Shown here piece after piece: positions 15,526-28,533 of a stretch of DNA of 64,000 nt; positions within the stretch are counted from its first letter, which is position 1, and every line of letters starts with the position of its first letter. This DNA comes from an uncultured Bacteroidota bacterium (lineage in GTDB: Bacteria; Bacteroidota; Bacteroidia; Flavobacteriales; Flavobacteriaceae): positions 62,001 to 126,000 of the forward strand of contig CACHVZ010000003.1 of the NCBI GenBank assembly GCA_902583445.1, in the 5' to 3' direction. The notes beneath the pieces are model-generated. The model was not told where the DNA came from. It was given only the letters and a program-made list of their open reading frames with translations, and did no database searches. A program made the translations under genes and the position numbers.

Positions 15526-16806
15526 CTAATAGTAATCCTTCATCTTGAGAACTATTTTATCTAGAGCTAAATTTCCAATACTTCCAATGTGAGAATGGTT
15601 AACTGTCTTTGGAAACTTTATTTCACCTGATTTTAATTTACTTTTTAATTCAAGATAAGCATCTCTAAAAGGCATCCCTTTTAAAACCATCTCATTGATT
15701 AACTCTACACTAAAAATATTTTCATAATTTGATTTTTGAAGTATTTTTTTATTGACACTTATCATAGATAAACAATATGATAGAATTTGAATACATTCTT
15801 TTATATCATTAACAGCATTAATAATTTTTCCCTTATTTAGTTGAAAATCCCTATGATATCCACTTGGGAGGTTAGTTGATGATAAATTTACAGAGTTTGA
15901 TAGATTTTGAATACTATTACATTTTCCTCTTATTATCTCAAAAACATCAGGATTCTTTTTATGTGGCATTATGCTAGATCCTGTTGTAATATTTTCAGGA
16001 AATGAAATAAATTGAAACTCATCTCCAGAATATAAACATATATCCATTGAAATTTTTGATAATGTAAAGGCAATATTCCCTATAGCATCGAAGGTGTTTT
16101 TTTCAATTTTATTTCTACTAATTTGACATGCGAGGGAGTTATACTTTAATGTTTTAAAATTTAAATCTTTTGTTGTAAAATCTCTATCAATATTAAATGA
16201 TGTTCCATAGCCAGCAGCACTACCTAATGTGTTTTGATTTACTATTTCAATTGAGCTATTAAGGCTAATAATATCGTCAATTAATGTTTCAGCATATGCT
16301 GAAAACCATAATCCAAAAGAGGAAGGCATTGCGGCTTTCATATGAGTATATCCAGGCATAATAATATCCTTATTTTTATTGGCAAGTTTAATCAATAAGT
16401 CAAATAAAGATTTTACTTCTGTTTTTATATTATTTAACTCATCAATAAGGTAGAGCTGGATTGAGACAAGTACTTGATCATTTCTTGATCTTGCAGTGTG
16501 AATTTTTTTTCCAATATCACCTAGTCTACTTATAAGTGTATATTCAATTTTTGAGTGCATATCTTCAAATTCCTTCTCAATTTTTAATTCTCCAGATTCG
16601 GCCTCAATTAGCATCTCATTAAGAATGTTTATTATTCTATCACATTCAATTTCTGATAAAAGATTGGATTTGTACAACATTTTTGCATGTGAAATAGAAG
16701 CTTTTAAATCATATTTAATTAAATGCATATCATTTAACCTATCATGACCAATTGTAAATTCAATTATTTTTTCATTACCTGAGTTATTTTTATCCCATAG
16801 TTTCAT
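15526..16806 (-). CDS. argH: Argininosuccinate lyase
   Basis: 426 residues. Splits argininosuccinate into arginine and fumarate, the last step of arginine synthesis, in the cytosol. Signatures: ARSRNDQ (105-111), GYTHMKAA with catalytic His155, and the fumarase/lyase family loop GSSIMPHKKNPD (276-287). Slightly shorter than the usual 450-470 residues, as in other Bacteroidetes. Last gene of the arginine operon, 1 nt after argE'. Confidence 0.96.
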   Translation of the reverse strand: MKLWDKNNSGNEKIIEFTIGHDRLNDMHLIKYDLKASISHAKMLYKSNLLSEIECDRIINILNEMLIEAESGELKIEKEFEDMHSKIEYTLISRLGDIGKKIHTARSRNDQVLVSIQLYLIDELNNIKTEVKSLFDLLIKLANKNKDIIMPGYTHMKAAMPSSFGLWFSAYAETLIDDIISLNSSIEIVNQNTLGSAAGYGTSFNIDRDFTTKDLNFKTLKYNSLACQISRNKIEKNTFDAIGNIAFTLSKISMDICLYSGDEFQFISFPENITTGSSIMPHKKNPDVFEIIRGKCNSIQNLSNSVNLSSTNLPSGYHRDFQLNKGKIINAVNDIKECIQILSYCLSMISVNKKILQKSNYENIFSVELINEMVLKGMPFRDAYLELKSKLKSGEIKFPKTVNHSHIGSIGNLALDKIVLKMKDYY

Positions 16807-16807
16807 A

Positions 16808-17866
16808 TTATATTATTTTATTTAAAAGATTTTTATAGACTTCTATCCCCTCTTTAACCTCATCAACATATATATATTCATCTGCACTATGGGATCTTTT
16901 TGAATTACCGGGCCCAATTTTTACTGATGGAAAATCAAGTAAGGCCTGGTCTGATAATGTTGGAGATCCATAAGATTCTATTCCTATTGAGTCTGCAGAC
17001 TTTACAATTTTATGATTAGAACTGATTGATGATGGCCTAAGATTCAAAGATCTAGCCTTTATTTCACATGGACATTTACTAACAAAGAAATCATTGATTT
17101 CATTGATATCATAAAGTTCATTAATTCTTACATCAACAACAATATCAACTTCAGAAGGTATTACGTTATGTTGAAATCCAGCATTTATTTGAGTTATTGT
17201 TGTTTTAACTGGTCCCAATAATTTTGAAACCCTATCAAATTTTATTTGATTAAACCAGTTAAGTATTTTTGGCAGTTTTTCAATGGCATTATCGATATTT
17301 TCGTGAGCTGCATGACTTGGTTTACCTTTTATTTTTGCATCAAATACAATTAGACCTCTTTCAGCAATAGATAGCTTCATTTGTGTTGGCTCTCCAATAA
17401 TTCCAAAATCAATTTTAGGTATTTTTTTTAGAATACTTTTAATTCCATTTGTTCCTGCAATTTCTTCCTCAGCTGTACAAGCAATAATAAAATTATAGTT
17501 CATATTTTGACTTAAATATATGCTTTTAAAAAGGTATAGAAGTGATACAAGAGCACCTCCCGCATCGTTACTTCCTAATCCAAATATCTTTCCATTCTTT
17601 TCAGTCGGATAGAATGGATCAATAGTGAATGATTTATTTGGCTGGACTGTATCATGATGAGAATTTAGAAGAATTGTAGGTTTCTTTTTATTAAAATACT
17701 TGTTCCCCGCCCATAAATTATTTAAATGTCTTTTATAATCTATTCCATTTTCTTTAAACCAAGACTCTAAAATTTTAACAACATCTTCCTCCTTTTTTGA
17801 GAAAGAAGGAGTCTTAATAATTTTCTTTAGAAGTTTAATGGCATCTTTCGATTGATTATCAATCAT
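16808..17866 (-). CDS. argE: M20 family N-acyl-ornithine/citrulline deacylase (ArgE-like)
   Basis: 352 residues, M20 metallopeptidase family. Metal ligands are visible: His71 and Asp72 in HHDTVQP, Asp101 in GSNDAGG, and the acid pair in TAEEE (131-135); GEPTQMK and GKPSHAA follow, with the dimerisation domain between about 165 and 270. It should remove the acyl group from acyl-citrulline, because the transcarbamylase of this operon acts before deacylation in Bacteroidetes. Whether the group is acetyl or succinyl is not shown by this gene. It lies between argB and argH with 1-nt gaps. Confidence 0.88.
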   Translation of the reverse strand: MIDNQSKDAIKLLKKIIKTPSFSKKEEDVVKILESWFKENGIDYKRHLNNLWAGNKYFNKKKPTILLNSHHDTVQPNKSFTIDPFYPTEKNGKIFGLGSNDAGGALVSLLYLFKSIYLSQNMNYNFIIACTAEEEIAGTNGIKSILKKIPKIDFGIIGEPTQMKLSIAERGLIVFDAKIKGKPSHAAHENIDNAIEKLPKILNWFNQIKFDRVSKLLGPVKTTITQINAGFQHNVIPSEVDIVVDVRINELYDINEINDFFVSKCPCEIKARSLNLRPSSISSNHKIVKSADSIGIESYGSPTLSDQALLDFPSVKIGPGNSKRSHSADEYIYVDEVKEGIEVYKNLLNKII

Positions 17867-17867
17867 A

Positions 17868-18641
17868 TTAATTGGTTATTGTTGTTGATTTAATATTTAT
17901 TTCATCTAGAGATTGTCCTGCAATCTTTACTGATTTCACACCATTATTTAATGCATAAAATGAATTTGTTAATTTGGGAATCATTCCATTGGATATAATA
18001 TTAAGCTTTAAGTAATTACTAAACTCCTTTTCATTGAGTTGACCAAATGTAGAATTATCATCATTAGGGTTTGATAGAACTCCATTTTTTTCATGACAAT
18101 AAATTAAATTAACTATATAATACTTTGATAGTGAAATTGCTATTTCAGAGGAAATTGTATCAGCATTAGTATTGAGTAATTGGCCATTTTTATCATGAGT
18201 AATTGAACATATAACAGGAGTAAGATTTTCATCTATCAAATTTTTTAAAAAAATAGAATTTATTTTTTTTATATCTCCGACTAAACCATAATCGATTTCC
18301 TTCACAGGTCTTTTAACACTCTCAATTAAATTAGCGTCTGCTCCAGATAATCCGATTGAATTACAATTAAATGATTGCAATTTCGTCACCAAAGTTTTAT
18401 TTAAACTTCCAGCATAAATCATTGTGGCAACTTCAAGATCTTGAATACTTGTTATCCTTCTGCCATTTCTAATTTTGATATCTAAATTTAATTTTTTACA
18501 CATTTTTGTAACTTGATTACCTCCTCCGTGAATTAATATTTTTTTCGTTTTTATTTTAGCAAAAGATTTTAAAAATCTATGTAAAACATGACTATCATTA
18601 ATTAATTTTCCACCAATTTTAACAATTAAAATTTTATCCAT
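17868..18641 (-). CDS. argB: N-acylglutamate kinase (ArgB)
   Basis: 257 residues of the amino-acid kinase family. Phosphorylates the gamma-carboxylate of N-acetyl- or N-succinylglutamate. Signatures: VKIGGK (7-12), HGGGNQV (38-44), the RNGRR segment near 58-62, GLSGADANLI near 120, and LNTNADTISSEIA near 156. Its ATG overlaps the end of argF' by 8 nt (ATGGATAA). Length is normal for the family. Confidence 0.93.
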   Translation of the reverse strand: MDKILIVKIGGKLINDSHVLHRFLKSFAKIKTKKILIHGGGNQVTKMCKKLNLDIKIRNGRRITSIQDLEVATMIYAGSLNKTLVTKLQSFNCNSIGLSGADANLIESVKRPVKEIDYGLVGDIKKINSIFLKNLIDENLTPVICSITHDKNGQLLNTNADTISSEIAISLSKYYIVNLIYCHEKNGVLSNPNDDNSTFGQLNEKEFSNYLKLNIISNGMIPKLTNSFYALNNGVKSVKIAGQSLDEINIKSTTITN

Positions 18642-19581
18642 TTTTTAATAATTTTTTTATGATGTGCTGAGCAGTATATATTCTATTTTCAGATTGGTCA
18701 ATAATAAGTGATTGTTCACTATCAATAACATTATCAGTTGCAACTAGATTTCTTCTAATGGGAAGGCAATGCATAAATTTTGCATTATTAGTAATAGACA
18801 TCTTTTTTTCATCAATTATCCAATCATTGTTGTTATTATTTATCTCACCATAATTCTCAAAAGAACTCCAGTTCTTCGCATAAACAAAGTCAACACCTTT
18901 AAATGCATCTAACTGGTTATTATTAGTTTTTATTCCTTTCAAAATAGTTGGATCAAGATTAAAACCTTCAGGATTAGTAATTGATATATCAAAGTTCATT
19001 TTCTTCATTGCCCTAACAAATGAATTAGGAACAGCATGAGGTAAAGGTTTAATGTGAGGAGCCCATGTCAACAATACTTTTGGTTTATTAACCCTAGAAT
19101 TTTCTTTAATTGTAACTAAATCAGTAAGTGCTTGAAGAGGGTGGGCAATTGAACTCTCCATATTAAATACTGGAATATTTGAGTATCTAATAAAACTTTT
19201 TATAATACGATCTTCCGCATCCTTTTCTTTACTTTTTAATAACGGGAAAGATCTTACACCAATAATATCACAATAATTAGAAATCACCCTAGCAGCATCT
19301 TTTATGTGTTCTACCTTTGAGGAATCCATTATTTTACCATCTTCAAATTCTAAAGACCATATATTATTTGAGATATTTATAAAAAAGGTCTCTAATCCAA
19401 GATTTCTGGATGCTTTGTATGTACTCATTCTTGTTCTTAGACTAGGATTAAAGAAAATTAAGCCAATAATTTTATCCTCAAAGATCTTTTGATATTTTCC
19501 GACATTATTTTTTATATCAAGTATCTCATCAATTGATTGATTAATATCCTTTATATCATTGAGGTTGTAGAAATTTTTCAT
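18634..19581 (-). CDS. argF': N-acyl-L-ornithine carbamoyltransferase (ArgF', SOTCase/AOTCase type)
   Basis: 315 residues. Transfers a carbamoyl group to N-acylated ornithine, the unusual Bacteroidetes/Xanthomonas route. Signatures: FFNPSLRTRMST (43-54) as carbamoyl-phosphate loop, RSFP, WAPHIKPLPHAVPNS near 173-187, and MHCLPIRRN. The residue known to set specificity (Pro90 in the Bacteroides succinylornithine enzyme, Glu92 in the Xanthomonas acetylornithine enzyme) is Val90 here, in SSKVEHIKDA. That argues against a Glu-type acetylornithine enzyme and for a succinyl substrate. 4-nt overlap with argD, 8-nt overlap with argB. Confidence 0.92.
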   Translation of the reverse strand: MKNFYNLNDIKDINQSIDEILDIKNNVGKYQKIFEDKIIGLIFFNPSLRTRMSTYKASRNLGLETFFINISNNIWSLEFEDGKIMDSSKVEHIKDAARVISNYCDIIGVRSFPLLKSKEKDAEDRIIKSFIRYSNIPVFNMESSIAHPLQALTDLVTIKENSRVNKPKVLLTWAPHIKPLPHAVPNSFVRAMKKMNFDISITNPEGFNLDPTILKGIKTNNNQLDAFKGVDFVYAKNWSSFENYGEINNNNNDWIIDEKKMSITNNAKFMHCLPIRRNLVATDNVIDSEQSLIIDQSENRIYTAQHIIKKLLKNG

Positions 19582-20702
19582 AGTGATTTATTAAGTGCAT
19601 TGAAAAAAATATCAAAATGATTTTTTTTAATTGACAATGGAGGTAAAATTCTAATTAAATTTTTATTACTGCTGCTACCAGTAAAAATTTTATGTTCGTA
19701 GACTAACTTTGATCTTAATTCTGAGACATCAAAATCAAATTCTATTCCCAACATCAAACCTCTTCCCTTTACCTTTTTTATGGAGTTGAATTTTGAAGCA
19801 ATATTTTTAAAATAGCTCTCTAACTCTATAGCTTTTTTACAAATGTTATTTTTTTTCAAAAATTCAAGAACACTTAAAGAAGCAACACATGCTAGATGAT
19901 TACCACCGTATGTAGTCCCGAGTATACCTTTTTGAGGATGGATATTAGGATTTACAAGAATTCCTCCTACTGGAAAACCATTTCCCATTCCTTTTGCGAT
20001 TGTAATTATATCAGGCTGAATATTAAATTTTTGAAAAGCAAAAAATTGACCGGAACGACAAAATCCTGATTGAACCTCATCTGCAATTATAGATACCTGA
20101 TATTTTTTTTGATAATAGTCTAGTCCATTAATAAAGTCCTCGTCAGGTTGGTCAAGTCCTCCAACCCCTTGAATTGATTCAAATATTATTGCACTTACGT
20201 CTCCCTTATCTAACTCTATTTCTAACTTTTTATTGTCATTAAATTCAATAAAACTAACATTATGTTGTTTGTTCAGCTCAGAGTTAATGTATTTATTATC
20301 AGTAACTGCAACGGCAGCTGATGTTCTTCCATGAAAAGAATTTTTAAAAGCAATTATTCTCTTTTTTCCTGTATTAAAAGAAGATAGCTTTAGAGCATTT
20401 TCTACAGCCTCAGCACCAGAGTTACACATGAACAGCTTATAATTATCTAAATCTGCTTGTGAGTTAATCTCTTTCGATAATTCATCCTGTAATGGATTTC
20501 TTACAGCATTTGAATAAAATCCTAGATTCTTAAGTTGATTAGTTATATTCTTAACATATTTTTTTTCAGAATGACCTATTGAGATTACTGCATGTCCTCC
20601 ATATAAATCTAAATATTTATTATTAAAATCATCATAAATATATACATCCTTTCCCTTTACAGGAACTACATCAAATTGGTTGTAAACGTCAAATGTTTTC
20701 AT
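19578..20702 (-). CDS. argD: N-acylornithine aminotransferase (ArgD)
   Basis: 374 residues, class-III PLP aminotransferase. Converts N-acylglutamate semialdehyde to N-acylornithine with glutamate as amino donor. Visible: the GAEAVENALK segment (96-105), SFHGRTSAAV (122-131), ADEVQSGFCRSG with Asp208, and the PLP lysine Lys237 in TIAKGMGNG. Lies 1 nt after argC and overlaps argF' by 4 nt. Confidence 0.94.
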   Translation of the reverse strand: MKTFDVYNQFDVVPVKGKDVYIYDDFNNKYLDLYGGHAVISIGHSEKKYVKNITNQLKNLGFYSNAVRNPLQDELSKEINSQADLDNYKLFMCNSGAEAVENALKLSSFNTGKKRIIAFKNSFHGRTSAAVAVTDNKYINSELNKQHNVSFIEFNDNKKLEIELDKGDVSAIIFESIQGVGGLDQPDEDFINGLDYYQKKYQVSIIADEVQSGFCRSGQFFAFQKFNIQPDIITIAKGMGNGFPVGGILVNPNIHPQKGILGTTYGGNHLACVASLSVLEFLKKNNICKKAIELESYFKNIASKFNSIKKVKGRGLMLGIEFDFDVSELRSKLVYEHKIFTGSSSNKNLIRILPPLSIKKNHFDIFFNALNKSL

Positions 20703-20703
20703 A

Positions 20704-21675
20704 TTAATAAATTGAACCTTTAAAATTTAGACCTAAGCTTTCCTCATAACCATAAATAATATTCAAGTTTTGTACTGCTTGACCTGATGCCCCTTTAAGA
20801 AGATTATCTAAAACAGTAGTTATATGAATTATATTTTCATGGAATTCTATTTTCAAATGGCAATTATTAGTATTAATTACCTCTTTTAGGTTTATATCAT
20901 TTTTAGATAAAAAAGTAAAAGGATGATTTTCATAGAAGTCTTCATAAATAATCTTGATATCCTCAATCTCATGATCAAATTTCATATAAATCGAAGTGAA
21001 AATTCCTCTAGTAAAGTTTCCTCTGTATGGAACAAAATAAATTTTAGAATCGTTACCCAAGATATTTAATGTTTGATATATCTCATTTAAATGTTGGTGA
21101 TTAAAAGGTTTATAAATGGATAAGTTATTATTTCTCCAGTTGAAGTTATTTGTATCTGAACTCATCTTACCAGCACCAGTACTTCCTGTTATCGCATTAA
21201 CATGAATATCATTTTTTATTAATTTATTAACCATTAATGGAAGTAAACCAATTTGAATAGCAGTTGCAAAACATCCAGGATTTGCAATTGATTTACTTTG
21301 TTTAATCTTTTCTCTATTGAACTCCGGCAAACTATATAGAAAATTTCTTGATTTATATTTGTTATTATTGATTAACCTAAAATCTGAACTAAGATCAATT
21401 ATAATCATGTCACTTTTAAAATTATAATTATCTAAAAAAAATTTGGACTTTCCATGTCCCAGACATAGAAATAGTACATCAATGTCCGTAGTAATTTGAT
21501 CAGAAAAAATAATATCTGTTTTCCCTAACAAATCTGGATGTATTTCATGAATATTTTTTCCATTTTGAGATGAAGAATAAATGAATTTTATTTTAAACTT
21601 TGGGTGATTCAGTAATATTCTAATTAACTCACCCCCTGTAAATCCTGAACCCCCTACTATTCCTATTTTTTTCAT
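20704..21675 (-). CDS. argC: N-acetyl-gamma-glutamyl-phosphate reductase (ArgC)
   Basis: 323 residues. Reduces N-acylglutamyl phosphate to the semialdehyde with NADPH. Visible: GIVGGSGFTGGELIR nucleotide loop (5-19), catalytic Cys135 in NPGCFATAIQIGLLPL, and the PFNHQHLNEI segment that carries the family's conserved His. Second enzyme gene after argG, with a 2-nt gap. Confidence 0.95.
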   Translation of the reverse strand: MKKIGIVGGSGFTGGELIRILLNHPKFKIKFIYSSSQNGKNIHEIHPDLLGKTDIIFSDQITTDIDVLFLCLGHGKSKFFLDNYNFKSDMIIIDLSSDFRLINNNKYKSRNFLYSLPEFNREKIKQSKSIANPGCFATAIQIGLLPLMVNKLIKNDIHVNAITGSTGAGKMSSDTNNFNWRNNNLSIYKPFNHQHLNEIYQTLNILGNDSKIYFVPYRGNFTRGIFTSIYMKFDHEIEDIKIIYEDFYENHPFTFLSKNDINLKEVINTNNCHLKIEFHENIIHITTVLDNLLKGASGQAVQNLNIIYGYEESLGLNFKGSIY

Positions 21676-21677
21676 TA

Positions 21678-22862
21678 CTATTTATTTATTTGTTTAAATA
21701 TTCTTGAAGAATTTGAATAAATTTTAATAAATCCTTTAATGTCATCAGAAGACCAGTTTAAATTTTCTTCTCCATAAACTCCTGAATTATCATTCATTAA
21801 ATCATGTTTAGATTTAATTCCATTTAATTTAAAATTATATGGACTTAATTCCACAAAAACATTTCCAGTAACATATCTTTGACTTTTTTCAAAATATGCT
21901 TCAATATCTTCAATTACTGGATCAAAGTATTGCCCTTCATGAATTAACATACCATATAATTTTGAAATAGATTCTTTTTGAAAAATTTGCCATTTCGACA
22001 TAGTATGCTTTTCCAAAAGTTCATGAGCCTTAATTATAATTCTTGCTGCAGATGCTTCAAAACCTACTCTACCTTTAATTCCAATTATAGAATCACCAAC
22101 ATGAACATCCCTTCCAATAGCATATTTACTGGATATTTCCTCAAGGTAATCTATCAAATCAATGGGATTAGATCTTTTATTATTAATTGATACTATTTCA
22201 CCTTTTATAAATTTTATATTTAATACTTTTGTTCTCTTTTCTATTAATTTTTTTGTAAATGCCTTATTTGGAAGAGTTTTAAAAGAGGTTAAAGTCTCAT
22301 CACCACCGATTGTAGTACCCCATATTCCTTTGTTTATTGAGTACTTAGAGTTATTCCATCTAAACTTTACACCCATTTTTTTTAAGTACGATATTTCCTG
22401 TTTCCTTGAAATATTATTGTCTCTTATTGGAGTAATTATATTAATATTTGGATTTAATATTTGAAAAATTGAATCAAATCTTACTTGATCATTTCCTGCA
22501 CCAGTTGATCCATGAGCAATAGTATTTATATTATTTTTTTTTGAATAATTCATTATTTCAATTGCTTGTATTATTCTTTCAGAACTAACTGAAAGAGGAT
22601 AAGAATTATTCTTGAGAACATTACCAAAAATTAAAAACTTAATTATTTTATCGTAGAATGGTTTCTTTGCATCAATTGAAATAAATTTTGAAGCACCTAA
22701 TTCAATCGCTTGTTTTTTTATATTGATTAGTTCTGATTTATTAAAGCCACCAGTATTCACTAATATAGCGTGAACATCAAAGCCATCAATAGATAGTCTC
22801 TTTAAACAAAATGAAGTATCGAGACCTCCACTGTAAGCTAAAACTATAGTTTTATTTTTCAT
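21678..22862 (-). CDS. argG: Argininosuccinate synthase
   Basis: 394 residues. Joins citrulline and aspartate with ATP to form argininosuccinate. The P-loop-like AYSGGLDTS (9-17) and the AHGSTGAGNDQVRF segment are the family's signatures; GTTIGGD is also visible. It is 2 nt downstream of the GNAT gene. Citrulline comes from deacylation by the ArgE-like enzyme of the same operon. Confidence 0.95.
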   Translation of the reverse strand: MKNKTIVLAYSGGLDTSFCLKRLSIDGFDVHAILVNTGGFNKSELINIKKQAIELGASKFISIDAKKPFYDKIIKFLIFGNVLKNNSYPLSVSSERIIQAIEIMNYSKKNNINTIAHGSTGAGNDQVRFDSIFQILNPNINIITPIRDNNISRKQEISYLKKMGVKFRWNNSKYSINKGIWGTTIGGDETLTSFKTLPNKAFTKKLIEKRTKVLNIKFIKGEIVSINNKRSNPIDLIDYLEEISSKYAIGRDVHVGDSIIGIKGRVGFEASAARIIIKAHELLEKHTMSKWQIFQKESISKLYGMLIHEGQYFDPVIEDIEAYFEKSQRYVTGNVFVELSPYNFKLNGIKSKHDLMNDNSGVYGEENLNWSSDDIKGFIKIYSNSSRIFKQINK

Positions 22863-22864
22863 AA

Positions 22865-23386
22865 TTATTTTTTATCATATAACATACCTGTACATAGACA
22901 CATTGAAAACTCAGTTCTTTTGAGAATATCATAGTTTTGACATGTCTTACAGCCTTTCCAAAATTCTGGATCATCAGTTAATTCGCTAAAATGAGCAGGC
23001 CTATATCCAAGTTCATAATTTATTTTCATAACTGGCATTCCAGTTGTTATTCCAAAAATCTTTGATTTTGGATACTTTTTCAACGAGAGTTCTAGTACTT
23101 TCTTCTTAATCTTTTTTCCAATACCCATATTTCTGTATTTTGGTGATACTATTAATCCAGAATGAGCAACATACTCTCCATGCTCCCATGCTTCAATATA
23201 ACAGAACCCAGCAAAATTATTTTCATCTAATGCGATGACAGAATTTCCAGATAAAATTTTTTCTTTTATATATGTAGGAGATCTTCTAGCAATTCCTGTC
23301 CCCCTAATTTTAGCGGACTCATCTATTAGTTTGCTAATTAATTTACTATATTCTGTATGTTCGGCATTAGCCAGTTTTATTATCAA
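22865..23386 (-). CDS. GNAT acyltransferase heading the arginine operon (candidate ArgA')
   Basis: 173 residues, starting at TTG (23386); no suitable ATG lies near. GNAT fold with the acyl-CoA loop RNMGIGKK (85-92). The C-terminus carries four cysteines in CxxC (146, 149) and CxC (163, 165) arrangement, which could bind a metal. As first enzyme gene of a full arg operon that otherwise lacks an argA or argJ, it most probably makes N-acetyl- or N-succinylglutamate. That function is inferred from position and family. A short arginine-codon ORF precedes it by about 60 nt. Confidence 0.8.
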   Translation of the reverse strand: MIIKLANAEHTEYSKLISKLIDESAKIRGTGIARRSPTYIKEKILSGNSVIALDENNFAGFCYIEAWEHGEYVAHSGLIVSPKYRNMGIGKKIKKKVLELSLKKYPKSKIFGITTGMPVMKINYELGYRPAHFSELTDDPEFWKGCKTCQNYDILKRTEFSMCLCTGMLYDKK

Positions 23387-23446
23387 ATTCTGTATTTTAT
23401 TGGATTAAGTAAGTTAACTTCATATTGAAGCTATATCAAAAGGGAA

Positions 23447-23515
23447 TTATGCAACCCGACCTCGAAGAGTAAGTCGGTTGTGAAAAATACGATTGTATAT
23501 TTTCTTTAGAAACAT
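23447..23515 (-). CDS. Putative arginine leader peptide of the arg operon
   Basis: A 22-codon ORF (ATG 23515, TAA 23449-23447) upstream of the arginine operon. It begins MFLKKIYNRIF and ends RLTLRGRVA; Arg is at positions 9, 14, 18 and 20, encoded CGT, CGA, CGA and CGG. In the arg genes that I read codon by codon, arginine is AGA, so this clustering of rare CGN codons is unusual. Codons 13-21 lie in a hairpin (23480-23452). This fits ribosome-mediated control by charged tRNA-Arg. No Shine-Dalgarno is seen, as usual in this phylum. Alternative: the CG content belongs to a structured RNA and the frame is chance. Confidence 0.55.
   Translation of the reverse strand: MFLKKIYNRIFHNRLTLRGRVA
23452..23480 (-). 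promoter_or_regulatory. Hairpin in the arg operon leader
   Basis: Minus strand CAACCGAC pairs with GTCGGGTTG (8 bp with one bulged base); inside is a second small stem CTC-TTC-GAG. It overlaps the end of the leader ORF. No U-run follows, so it is not a plain terminator. A second stem AGCTTCA-ATA-TGAAGTT lies downstream, before the GNAT start. Confidence 0.55.
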
Positions 23516-23569
23516 ATTCATATATAAAATTGATAAAAAAAATTTTAATATCAAAATTTTAGGTTTAAA

Positions 23570-28433: not shown

Positions 28434-28478
28434 ATGATTAAAATTAACACATACTGGTGGTGGACACATGAATGTTAA
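28434..28478 (+). CDS. trpL: Trp operon leader peptide (three consecutive Trp codons)
   Basis: 14-codon ORF MIKINTYWWWTHEC followed by TAA, located 58 nt before trpE. Three adjacent TGG codons at positions 8-10 are the hallmark of attenuation by charged tRNA-Trp. The stop lies inside a pause hairpin (28467-28486). A terminator hairpin with U-run follows at 28506-28533. The ATG abuts the stop codon of the preceding small gene. Confidence 0.9.
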   Translation: MIKINTYWWWTHEC

Positions 28479-28519
28479 AATTCGTGGATAAAACTATTAT
28501 ATTATAGCTTGTCTCACGA
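28467..28519 (+). promoter_or_regulatory. trp attenuator: pause and antiterminator pairing
   Basis: Pause stem: 28467-28473 (CATGAAT) with 28480-28486 (ATTCGTG), loop GTTAAA. Alternative antiterminator: TCGTG at 28482-28486 (plus a G-U pair at 28487) with CACGA at 28515-28519, which would break the terminator. If the ribosome stalls at the Trp codons, region 2 is free and read-through occurs. The antiterminator is short, so it is less certain than the rest. Confidence 0.6.
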
Positions 28520-28533
28520 CAGGCTTTTTTTTT
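28506..28533 (+). terminator. Attenuator terminator before trpE
   Basis: AGCTTGTC and GACAGGCT form an 8-bp stem (one G-U pair) with loop TCAC, followed by nine T. trpE starts 3 nt later. Confidence 0.92.

Follow-up and report, generated by a model that had tools for sequence, protein, structure and literature searches.

A putative arginine-sensing leader peptide gene before the arg operon of an uncultured Flavobacteriaceae bacterium

Leader peptides and arginine operons

Arginine is usually taught as an amino acid under repressor control. Several other amino acids are associated with attenuators. In the his, trp, leu and ilv attenuators of Proteobacteria, a run of codons for the end product lies just upstream of the biosynthetic operon. 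In fungi, the arginine attenuator peptide is encoded by an arginine-responsive upstream open reading frame (ORF), and stalls in arginine excess.

Related elements have been described in other bacteria. Bacteroid-trp is listed in PMC2864571. Structured 5' elements of Flavobacterium psychrophilum give clues of leader-peptide attenuation before amino-acid operons, with pheA and hisG named (PMC9723704), and 5' UTRs of Bacteroides contain short ORFs reminiscent of leader peptides (PMC7366714). In S. aureus, rbfL is a short leader whose rare Arg codons sense arginine restriction (PMC13009471). An arginine leader on a bacterial operon for arginine biosynthesis was not recognized in searches of a collection of open-access papers, and none of the kind described below appears in the accessible parts of PMC6429828, PMC8632094, PMC2965389 and PMC4833913. 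A 2010 comparative study of amino-acid attenuation by Lopatovskaya and co-workers, cited in PMC4833913, could contain predictions that bear on this.

A candidate for such a leader is present in a 64,000-nucleotide stretch of DNA from an uncultured member of the Flavobacteriaceae, referred to here as the window. In the window and in many relatives, a short ORF rich in CGN arginine codons precedes the arg genes.

The arg leader in the window

The arg operon lies on the minus strand. A first-pass annotation of the window described it as an eight-gene operon, and NCBIfam searches agree, giving the order GNAT-argG-argC-argD-argF'-argB-argE-argH. Matches above the curated cut-offs identify argG (21678..22862), argC (20704..21675), argF' (N-acetylornithine carbamoyltransferase, 18634..19581), argB (17868..18641) and argH (15526..16806), while argD (19578..20702) and an argE/dapE-type deacylase (16808..17866) score below theirs. 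The first gene, GNAT (22865..23386), probably encodes N-acetylglutamate synthase. This assignment draws on its position in the operon, since its NCBIfam match, at 25.4 bits, stays far below the cut-off of 154. Its start codon at 23384-23386 is TTG, which the other five genomes of the genus in the six-genome alignment share.

The leader ORF ends 60 nt upstream of GNAT on the same strand. As first read it occupied 23447-23515 and encoded MFLKKIYNRIFHNRLTLRGRVA. An in-frame ATG at 23521, six bases further upstream, is kept in the six genomes of the genus that were aligned, the window's included; in one of them (L006) the first-read ATG is replaced by ACG and the upstream ATG is kept, so the start was moved up by two codons. 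The ATG at 23521 is probably the true start, giving an ORF of 24 codons and a stop at 23447..23521 with the translation MNMFLKKIYNRIFHNRLTLRGRVA. The earlier description of four arginine codons holds, and its length of 22 codons is probably two too short.

The four Arg codons are CGT, CGA, CGA and CGG. That all of them are CGN had been singled out as atypical, and it is: only 27 of the 538 Arg codons in 54 window ORFs (19096 codons) belong to this class. The chance of four CGN codons out of four is about 6e-6, and that of at least four Arg codons within 21 about 0.003, where the window ORFs are taken to represent the whole genome and neither value is corrected for the places in which a reader might have looked. 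The eight arg genes have CGN at 2 of 67 Arg codons. The other 65 are AGA or AGG. Enrichment for codons of the end product, one of the criteria for ribosome-mediated leader-peptide attenuators, is therefore present in the window ORF. No tRNA-Arg gene is among the tRNAs detected in the assembly of the window's genome, which is itself incomplete.

Two hairpins are predicted in the transcript, in agreement with an earlier report of one over the last third of the ORF and a further stem before GNAT. The first, CAACCGAC...GTCGGGTTG (23452..23480, minus strand), contains the last three Arg codons and has a folding energy of -9.8 kcal/mol, equalled by 3 of 200 shuffles. The second, TAGCTTCA-ATA-TGAAGTTA (23415..23433, minus strand), folds at -6.3 kcal/mol, an energy reached by 1 of 200 shuffles. 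Both stretches were picked because they fold, and the shuffle ranks should be read accordingly. The folding energy of the whole 161-nt leader is ordinary, with 42 of 200 shuffles as good. A U-run had been noted as missing; a terminator scan found no U-run terminator on the leader strand of the window and did detect the terminator of the trp leader.

Candidate promoter elements precede the ORF. A possible -7 element, TCAATTTT (23526..23533, minus strand), was recognized by eye 12 nt upstream of the leader ATG and is degenerate, matching four of the six fixed positions of TAnnTTTG. A possible -33 element, TTTTG (23552..23556, minus strand), is conserved in the alignment of six genus genomes. Both boxes were assigned from what we take to be the Bacteroidota -7 (TAnnTTTG) and -33 consensus sequences.

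The trp leader of the window

The window also contains a Trp leader peptide, MIKINTYWWWTHEC, at 28434-28478 on the plus strand, with a TATATTTG box 13 nt upstream of its ATG. A terminator made of a hairpin and a U-run follows at 28506-28533, just upstream of trpE. The best Rfam match of this leader is Bacteroid-trp, at 32.1 bits and below the cut-off of 49. This trp leader is textbook-like, and it was counted in favour of leader-peptide control of the arg genes. The Bacteroid-trp covariance model has no match to the window's arg leader at E values up to 10.

Conservation within the genus

The window's genus is represented by 25 genomes, and GNAT was found in 7 of them. A strong match to argH occurs in six of these seven (the exception is G006), and a fragment in G016. 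Most members of the genus may be arginine auxotrophs, with the reservation that the assemblies are incomplete.

Six of the leaders, that of the window's genome included, can be aligned over 24 codons with the reading frame free of indels. The first Arg codon, codon 11, appears as CGT or CGC; codon 16 is CGA, CGT or CGC; codon 20 is CGA in all six; and codon 22 is CGG except in L008, which has CAG (Gln). Three Arg residues are therefore invariant, and the fourth is found in five of the six. The grounds for rejecting the leader that the first-pass annotation named, among them frame-breaking indels with unconserved Arg codons, are seen in none of these genomes. The seventh leader (L009) cannot be aligned. 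Its ORF, MKLFSFDILTSSSTVRLRPNR, has three CGN Arg codons.

The half of the ORF that carries the Arg codons is conserved like coding DNA, with a mean identity in the six genomes of 0.917, against 0.918 for the first 120 nt of GNAT. Identity is 0.886 for the whole ORF and nearly the same, 0.872, for the 60-nt gap that follows it. Further upstream it is 0.719, with much of the drop owed to the divergent L005. Pairwise comparisons of the ORF give 43 synonymous and 67 nonsynonymous codon differences. Since the nonsynonymous changes are in excess, the peptide as such appears weakly constrained.

The leader and operon of L005 sit behind a different upstream region, in which a tRNA-like sequence was noticed by eye. 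The leader therefore seems to travel with the operon.

In the first hairpin the outer CAACC/GGTTG pairing is invariant in the six genomes, and inner pairs are broken in some. Covariation support is absent, and the exchanges among CGA, CGT and CGC at codon 16 disturb the stem yet keep the arginine.

Arg leaders in other genomes

A wider set was made of 80 named GNAT loci. These are the best 80 of 585 and so lean towards relatives of the query. Most have titles with what we take to be Flavobacteriaceae names, and two are titled otherwise (L094, Roseithermus; L104, Balneolaceae).

An Arg leader was called where an ORF within 280 nt upstream of GNAT had at least four Arg codons among its last 14. 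Such ORFs occur in 55 of the 80 loci, whereas 1600 dinucleotide shuffles gave 29 and the 80 reverse strands 9; the remaining 25 loci fall under the four-Arg threshold. CGN accounts for 289 of 312 Arg codons in the leaders (92.6%), against 242 of 508 in the GNAT genes (47.6%). The CGN share is higher in the leader than in GNAT in 73 of 79 loci and lower in four. A conserved position in front of the cognate operon, another criterion for attenuators, is thus seen in the relatives, where the gene annotated next to the leader is GNAT. With 55 of 80 loci and this codon bias, the original reading of the window ORF as an Arg leader peptide is well supported by the relatives.

Outside the family, Arg-rich ORFs are present in L017, L018, L023 and L024, and a shorter Arg cluster in L021 and L022, while in L019 and L020 GNAT is present and an Arg leader was not seen. 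Among the other loci, L198 likewise has GNAT with no visible Arg leader; the leader of L197 (genome G106) cannot be aligned, and its ORF still has three CGN Arg codons. The Balneolaceae locus has an ORF at about 1044-1110 that ends in FRIPRRR and contains CGG codons.

Endings in RRRP before the stop codon recur in the leaders of several genera, and outside the arginines the peptides differ widely among lineages. The window's peptide is not significantly similar to the leaders of relatives, 33 of 300 shuffles being as good; a proposed kinship with the first of the tandem leaders described below was rejected on the same ground.

A search for the repressor ArgR (PF01316) gave no match in any of 60 family genomes, among them the window's incomplete assembly. 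The same search matches 9 of 14 named control genomes, including Bacteroides ihuae.

Promoter spacing and tandem leaders

In 23 of 25 hand-chosen loci with a single leader, a TAnnTT[TA][GA] box starts 15 nt upstream of the leader ATG; in the other two the distance is 16 or 17 nt, and the spacing was counted without a shuffle control. If this box is the -7 element of Bacteroidota, the transcript would start at the ATG or a few bases before it.

About 31 of the 80 loci seem to have two Arg leaders in tandem. The upstream ORF, for example MNTLKNKIRPSSPGLRARSPRRRF, has its end about 220-255 nt away from GNAT. The figure is our own reading of 37 candidates, from which L079, L083, L091, L095, L096 and L101 were dropped. 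A wider automatic count returned a far ORF with at least three Arg codons for 40 of the 80 loci and for 129 of 1600 shuffles. At several tandem loci (L026, L029, L031, L034 and L038), the downstream Arg ORF, as judged by eye, lacks a nearby in-frame ATG, and its translation is therefore less certain. A T-run such as TTTTTATTTTTTT recurs between tandem leaders (L026, L034 and L043), about 170-210 nt before GNAT. A script found a run in 8 of 11 loci, and in these 8 no strong hairpin precedes it.

A two-hairpin RNA element

In most of the 80 loci, the Arg codons run into RRP, and these last codons form hairpin A, CGCCC-GTAA-GGGTG with a variable loop. Hairpin B comes next, with GG-TGNGN-CC enclosed by a stem of variable sequence. 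The strict hairpin B pattern is found in 63 of 80 loci, and in Psychroflexus and Lutibacter loci GA/TC replaces GG/CC.

The pairing was examined in an alignment (A2) of 56 of the 58 segments taken from the 80 loci, omitting L052 and L059, whose spacing is longer. Pairing is possible in 91.2% of cells. Across the whole structure, 50 cells show changes on both sides of a pair; the mean for shuffles is 15.4, and none of 500 shuffles reaches 50. Six of the eight pairs in hairpin B covary in this way. In hairpin A a single pair shows a both-sided change, and 23 of the 56 sequences cannot form the outer pair. A further alignment of hairpin B alone (A3, 38 of 54 segments) has its arms out of register.

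A covariance model of the two-hairpin arginine element, R1, was used to search genomes with stricter filters, by which weak matches may be lost. Of 60 family genomes, 41 have a strong match (E at most 3.5e-8), located 36-236 nt upstream of GNAT in every case. This corresponds to 41 of the 45 genomes with GNAT and none of the 15 that gave no GNAT match. The four GNAT-bearing genomes that lack a strong match are G000 (the window's), G078, G106 and G108. An Arg ORF is nevertheless present in G078 (L196) and G106 (L197), and in G108 neither a strong match nor a visible Arg ORF was found. Weak matches (E of 1e-4 and worse) do occur in genomes without GNAT. Eight weak matches were inspected, showed no leader-like context and were taken as chance.

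R1 has no match in the window or elsewhere in its genome, and none at the leaders of the genus loci L003-L009; away from its leader, L007 has a match of 7 bits. The second hairpin of the window occupies the position of hairpin B without its conserved loop. Common descent of the window leader with the others is not established, as it has neither an R1 match nor a significantly similar peptide. No Rfam family scores above its cut-off at the leaders of the 20 relatives searched. The few matches below threshold come from plastid, microRNA and sRNA families, and a single one partly overlaps the leader of L104.

How the leader may act

Judged from sequence, the ORF is very probably the gene of a leader peptide that senses charged tRNA-Arg and acts on the arg genes downstream. 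The sensor half of this proposal is well supported, and the output half is more tentative. The ORF, its codon bias, the conservation of its arginines, its location before the arg genes and the lack of an ArgR match in the genomes searched are all observed. Points against the proposal are the well-conserved gap behind the ORF, the excess of nonsynonymous differences in the genus, the missing R1 match there, and the loci that have GNAT but no visible Arg leader.

The operon mRNA would probably begin with the leader ORF or only slightly upstream of it. Under a shortage of charged tRNA-Arg, a ribosome would stall on the rare CGN codons, and stalling would raise the expression of the arg genes. The position of the ribosome most likely acts mainly on transcription, deciding whether RNA polymerase continues past the leader. 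The route would be one other than a classical U-run terminator, such as pausing or Rho.

A more specific version of transcriptional control assigns a role to each hairpin of the relatives. Hairpin A would be a pause or terminator signal that is masked by a ribosome on the Arg run, and hairpin B a putative site for a factor. We regard this as possible, with somewhat more doubt than confidence. The final Arg codons overlap with hairpin A. In the 57 of 80 loci covered by the test, the median energy of this hairpin is -7.3 kcal/mol, and the 12 nt that follow it are T-rich, with a T content of 0.49 compared with 0.37 downstream and 0.35 upstream. Lax terminator matches are found in 26 of 80 loci, compared with 45 of 800 mononucleotide shuffles; 19 are at hairpin A and three at hairpin B, with one locus having both. 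For hairpin B, the conserved letters of the TGNGN loop and the covarying stem would fit a binding site. On the other hand, 54 of the 80 loci have no terminator match, and the genus of the window lacks both hairpins as modelled. The T tract after hairpin A is also broken, and it peaks 10-13 nt past the stem, unlike that of an intrinsic terminator; this spacing would suit a pause better.

Control of translation is a close second to control of transcription, though taken by itself rather unlikely. Here the stalled ribosome would change how accessible the GNAT start is, which lies 60 nt further on. The missing intrinsic terminator fits such a mechanism, as does a weak hairpin that recurs over the GNAT start region in the predicted folds of 67 relatives. 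That hairpin, however, is a folding prediction, and no segment of the leader pairs with the GNAT start significantly better natively than across species. The trp leader of the same window, moreover, does have an intrinsic terminator.

Mutually exclusive alternative structures, a further criterion for attenuators, were not found among 45 segment pairs in 67 of the 80 loci. The stem of hairpin B alone is clear, and one other pairing, U1-U3, is weak (p 0.002, uncorrected). Such comparisons of native with cross-species pairing would miss pairings of invariant letters. L014 suggested a three-way pairing in which the leader ORF would bind the 5' arm of hairpin B; in 67 loci, however, native combinations (-5.41) were no better than cross-species ones (-5.75), and this was rejected. 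Exposure of an anti-SD match (AGGTG) by hairpin B was also considered and discarded, since Psychroflexus (L030, L039) and Lutibacter (L099, L100) loci have GATGNGTTC.

The remaining explanations deny the ORF its role as a leader. It could be an untranslated by-product of a structured RNA, either a riboswitch or a protein site, as the covariation at six of eight pairs of hairpin B might suggest. This is improbable. In the genus, changes at codon 16 alter stem pairs and spare the arginine; L009 and L197 have CGN Arg ORFs without an R1 match; and such ORFs are far rarer in shuffles and on the reverse strand. Still less probable is a functional Arg-rich small protein with no regulatory task. The recurrence of RRRP endings across genera would fit it, but the peptides vary widely outside the arginines, and hairpin A falls on the RRP codons. 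That the ORF arose by chance, as a short ORF in an AT-rich genome might, is scarcely credible given its CGN bias, the 55 of 80 relatives, the frame kept in six genomes and the conservation of the Arg half.

Taking the leader-peptide reading further, we tentatively propose a scheme for the family, which as a whole is less likely than not. Flavobacteriaceae that make arginine would have no ArgR and would run the whole arg operon by near-leaderless, CGN-rich Arg leaders, often two in series. These would be coupled to a new conserved hairpin with a TGNGN loop, acting through some factor and not as a classical U-run terminator. Streamlined marine lineages would have kept the peptide sensor and lost the hairpin.

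That no ArgR was found in 60 genomes, together with Arg leaders at arg loci, suggests a regulator swap in the family. The R1 model, the tandem leaders and the hairpin with the conserved loop can be tested in culturable marine bacteria. The use of CGN in the leader against AGA in the genome bears on which isoacceptor tRNA best reports starvation.

Comparison with known systems

Leader peptides are a known kind of regulator, with Bacteroid-trp as an example from the same phylum, and one for arginine on a biosynthetic operon was not found in the literature searched. The fungal arginine attenuator peptide is an arginine-responsive ORF like the present one, but it is eukaryotic, stalls in excess and is unrelated.

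Two bacterial leaders are linked to arginine in other ways. The speF leader of Salmonella, like the arg leader, precedes a gene tied to arginine, but that gene serves polyamine biosynthesis (ornithine decarboxylase) and not the synthesis of arginine (PMC6386406). The S. aureus leader rbfL differs in using AGA and AGG codons and in controlling a biofilm regulator; when arginine is limiting, it covers the ribosome-binding site and so lowers translation of that regulator (PMC13009471).

Flavobacterium psychrophilum belongs to the same family as the window, and the arginine operon is not among the elements named in the accessible part of PMC9723704.

The layout of the window leader is that of the his, trp, leu and ilv attenuators, with a codon run for the end product before the operon. 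It differs from them in that the amino acid is arginine, that no antiterminator/terminator pair was found, and that promoter spacing suggests a near-leaderless ORF. Bacteroid-trp (RF01692) responds to tryptophan instead, and the trp leader of the window ends in a U-run terminator, which the arg leader does not. Like the putative arg leader of the window, Bacteroid-trp is a leader peptide RNA for the product of its own operon, within the same phylum.
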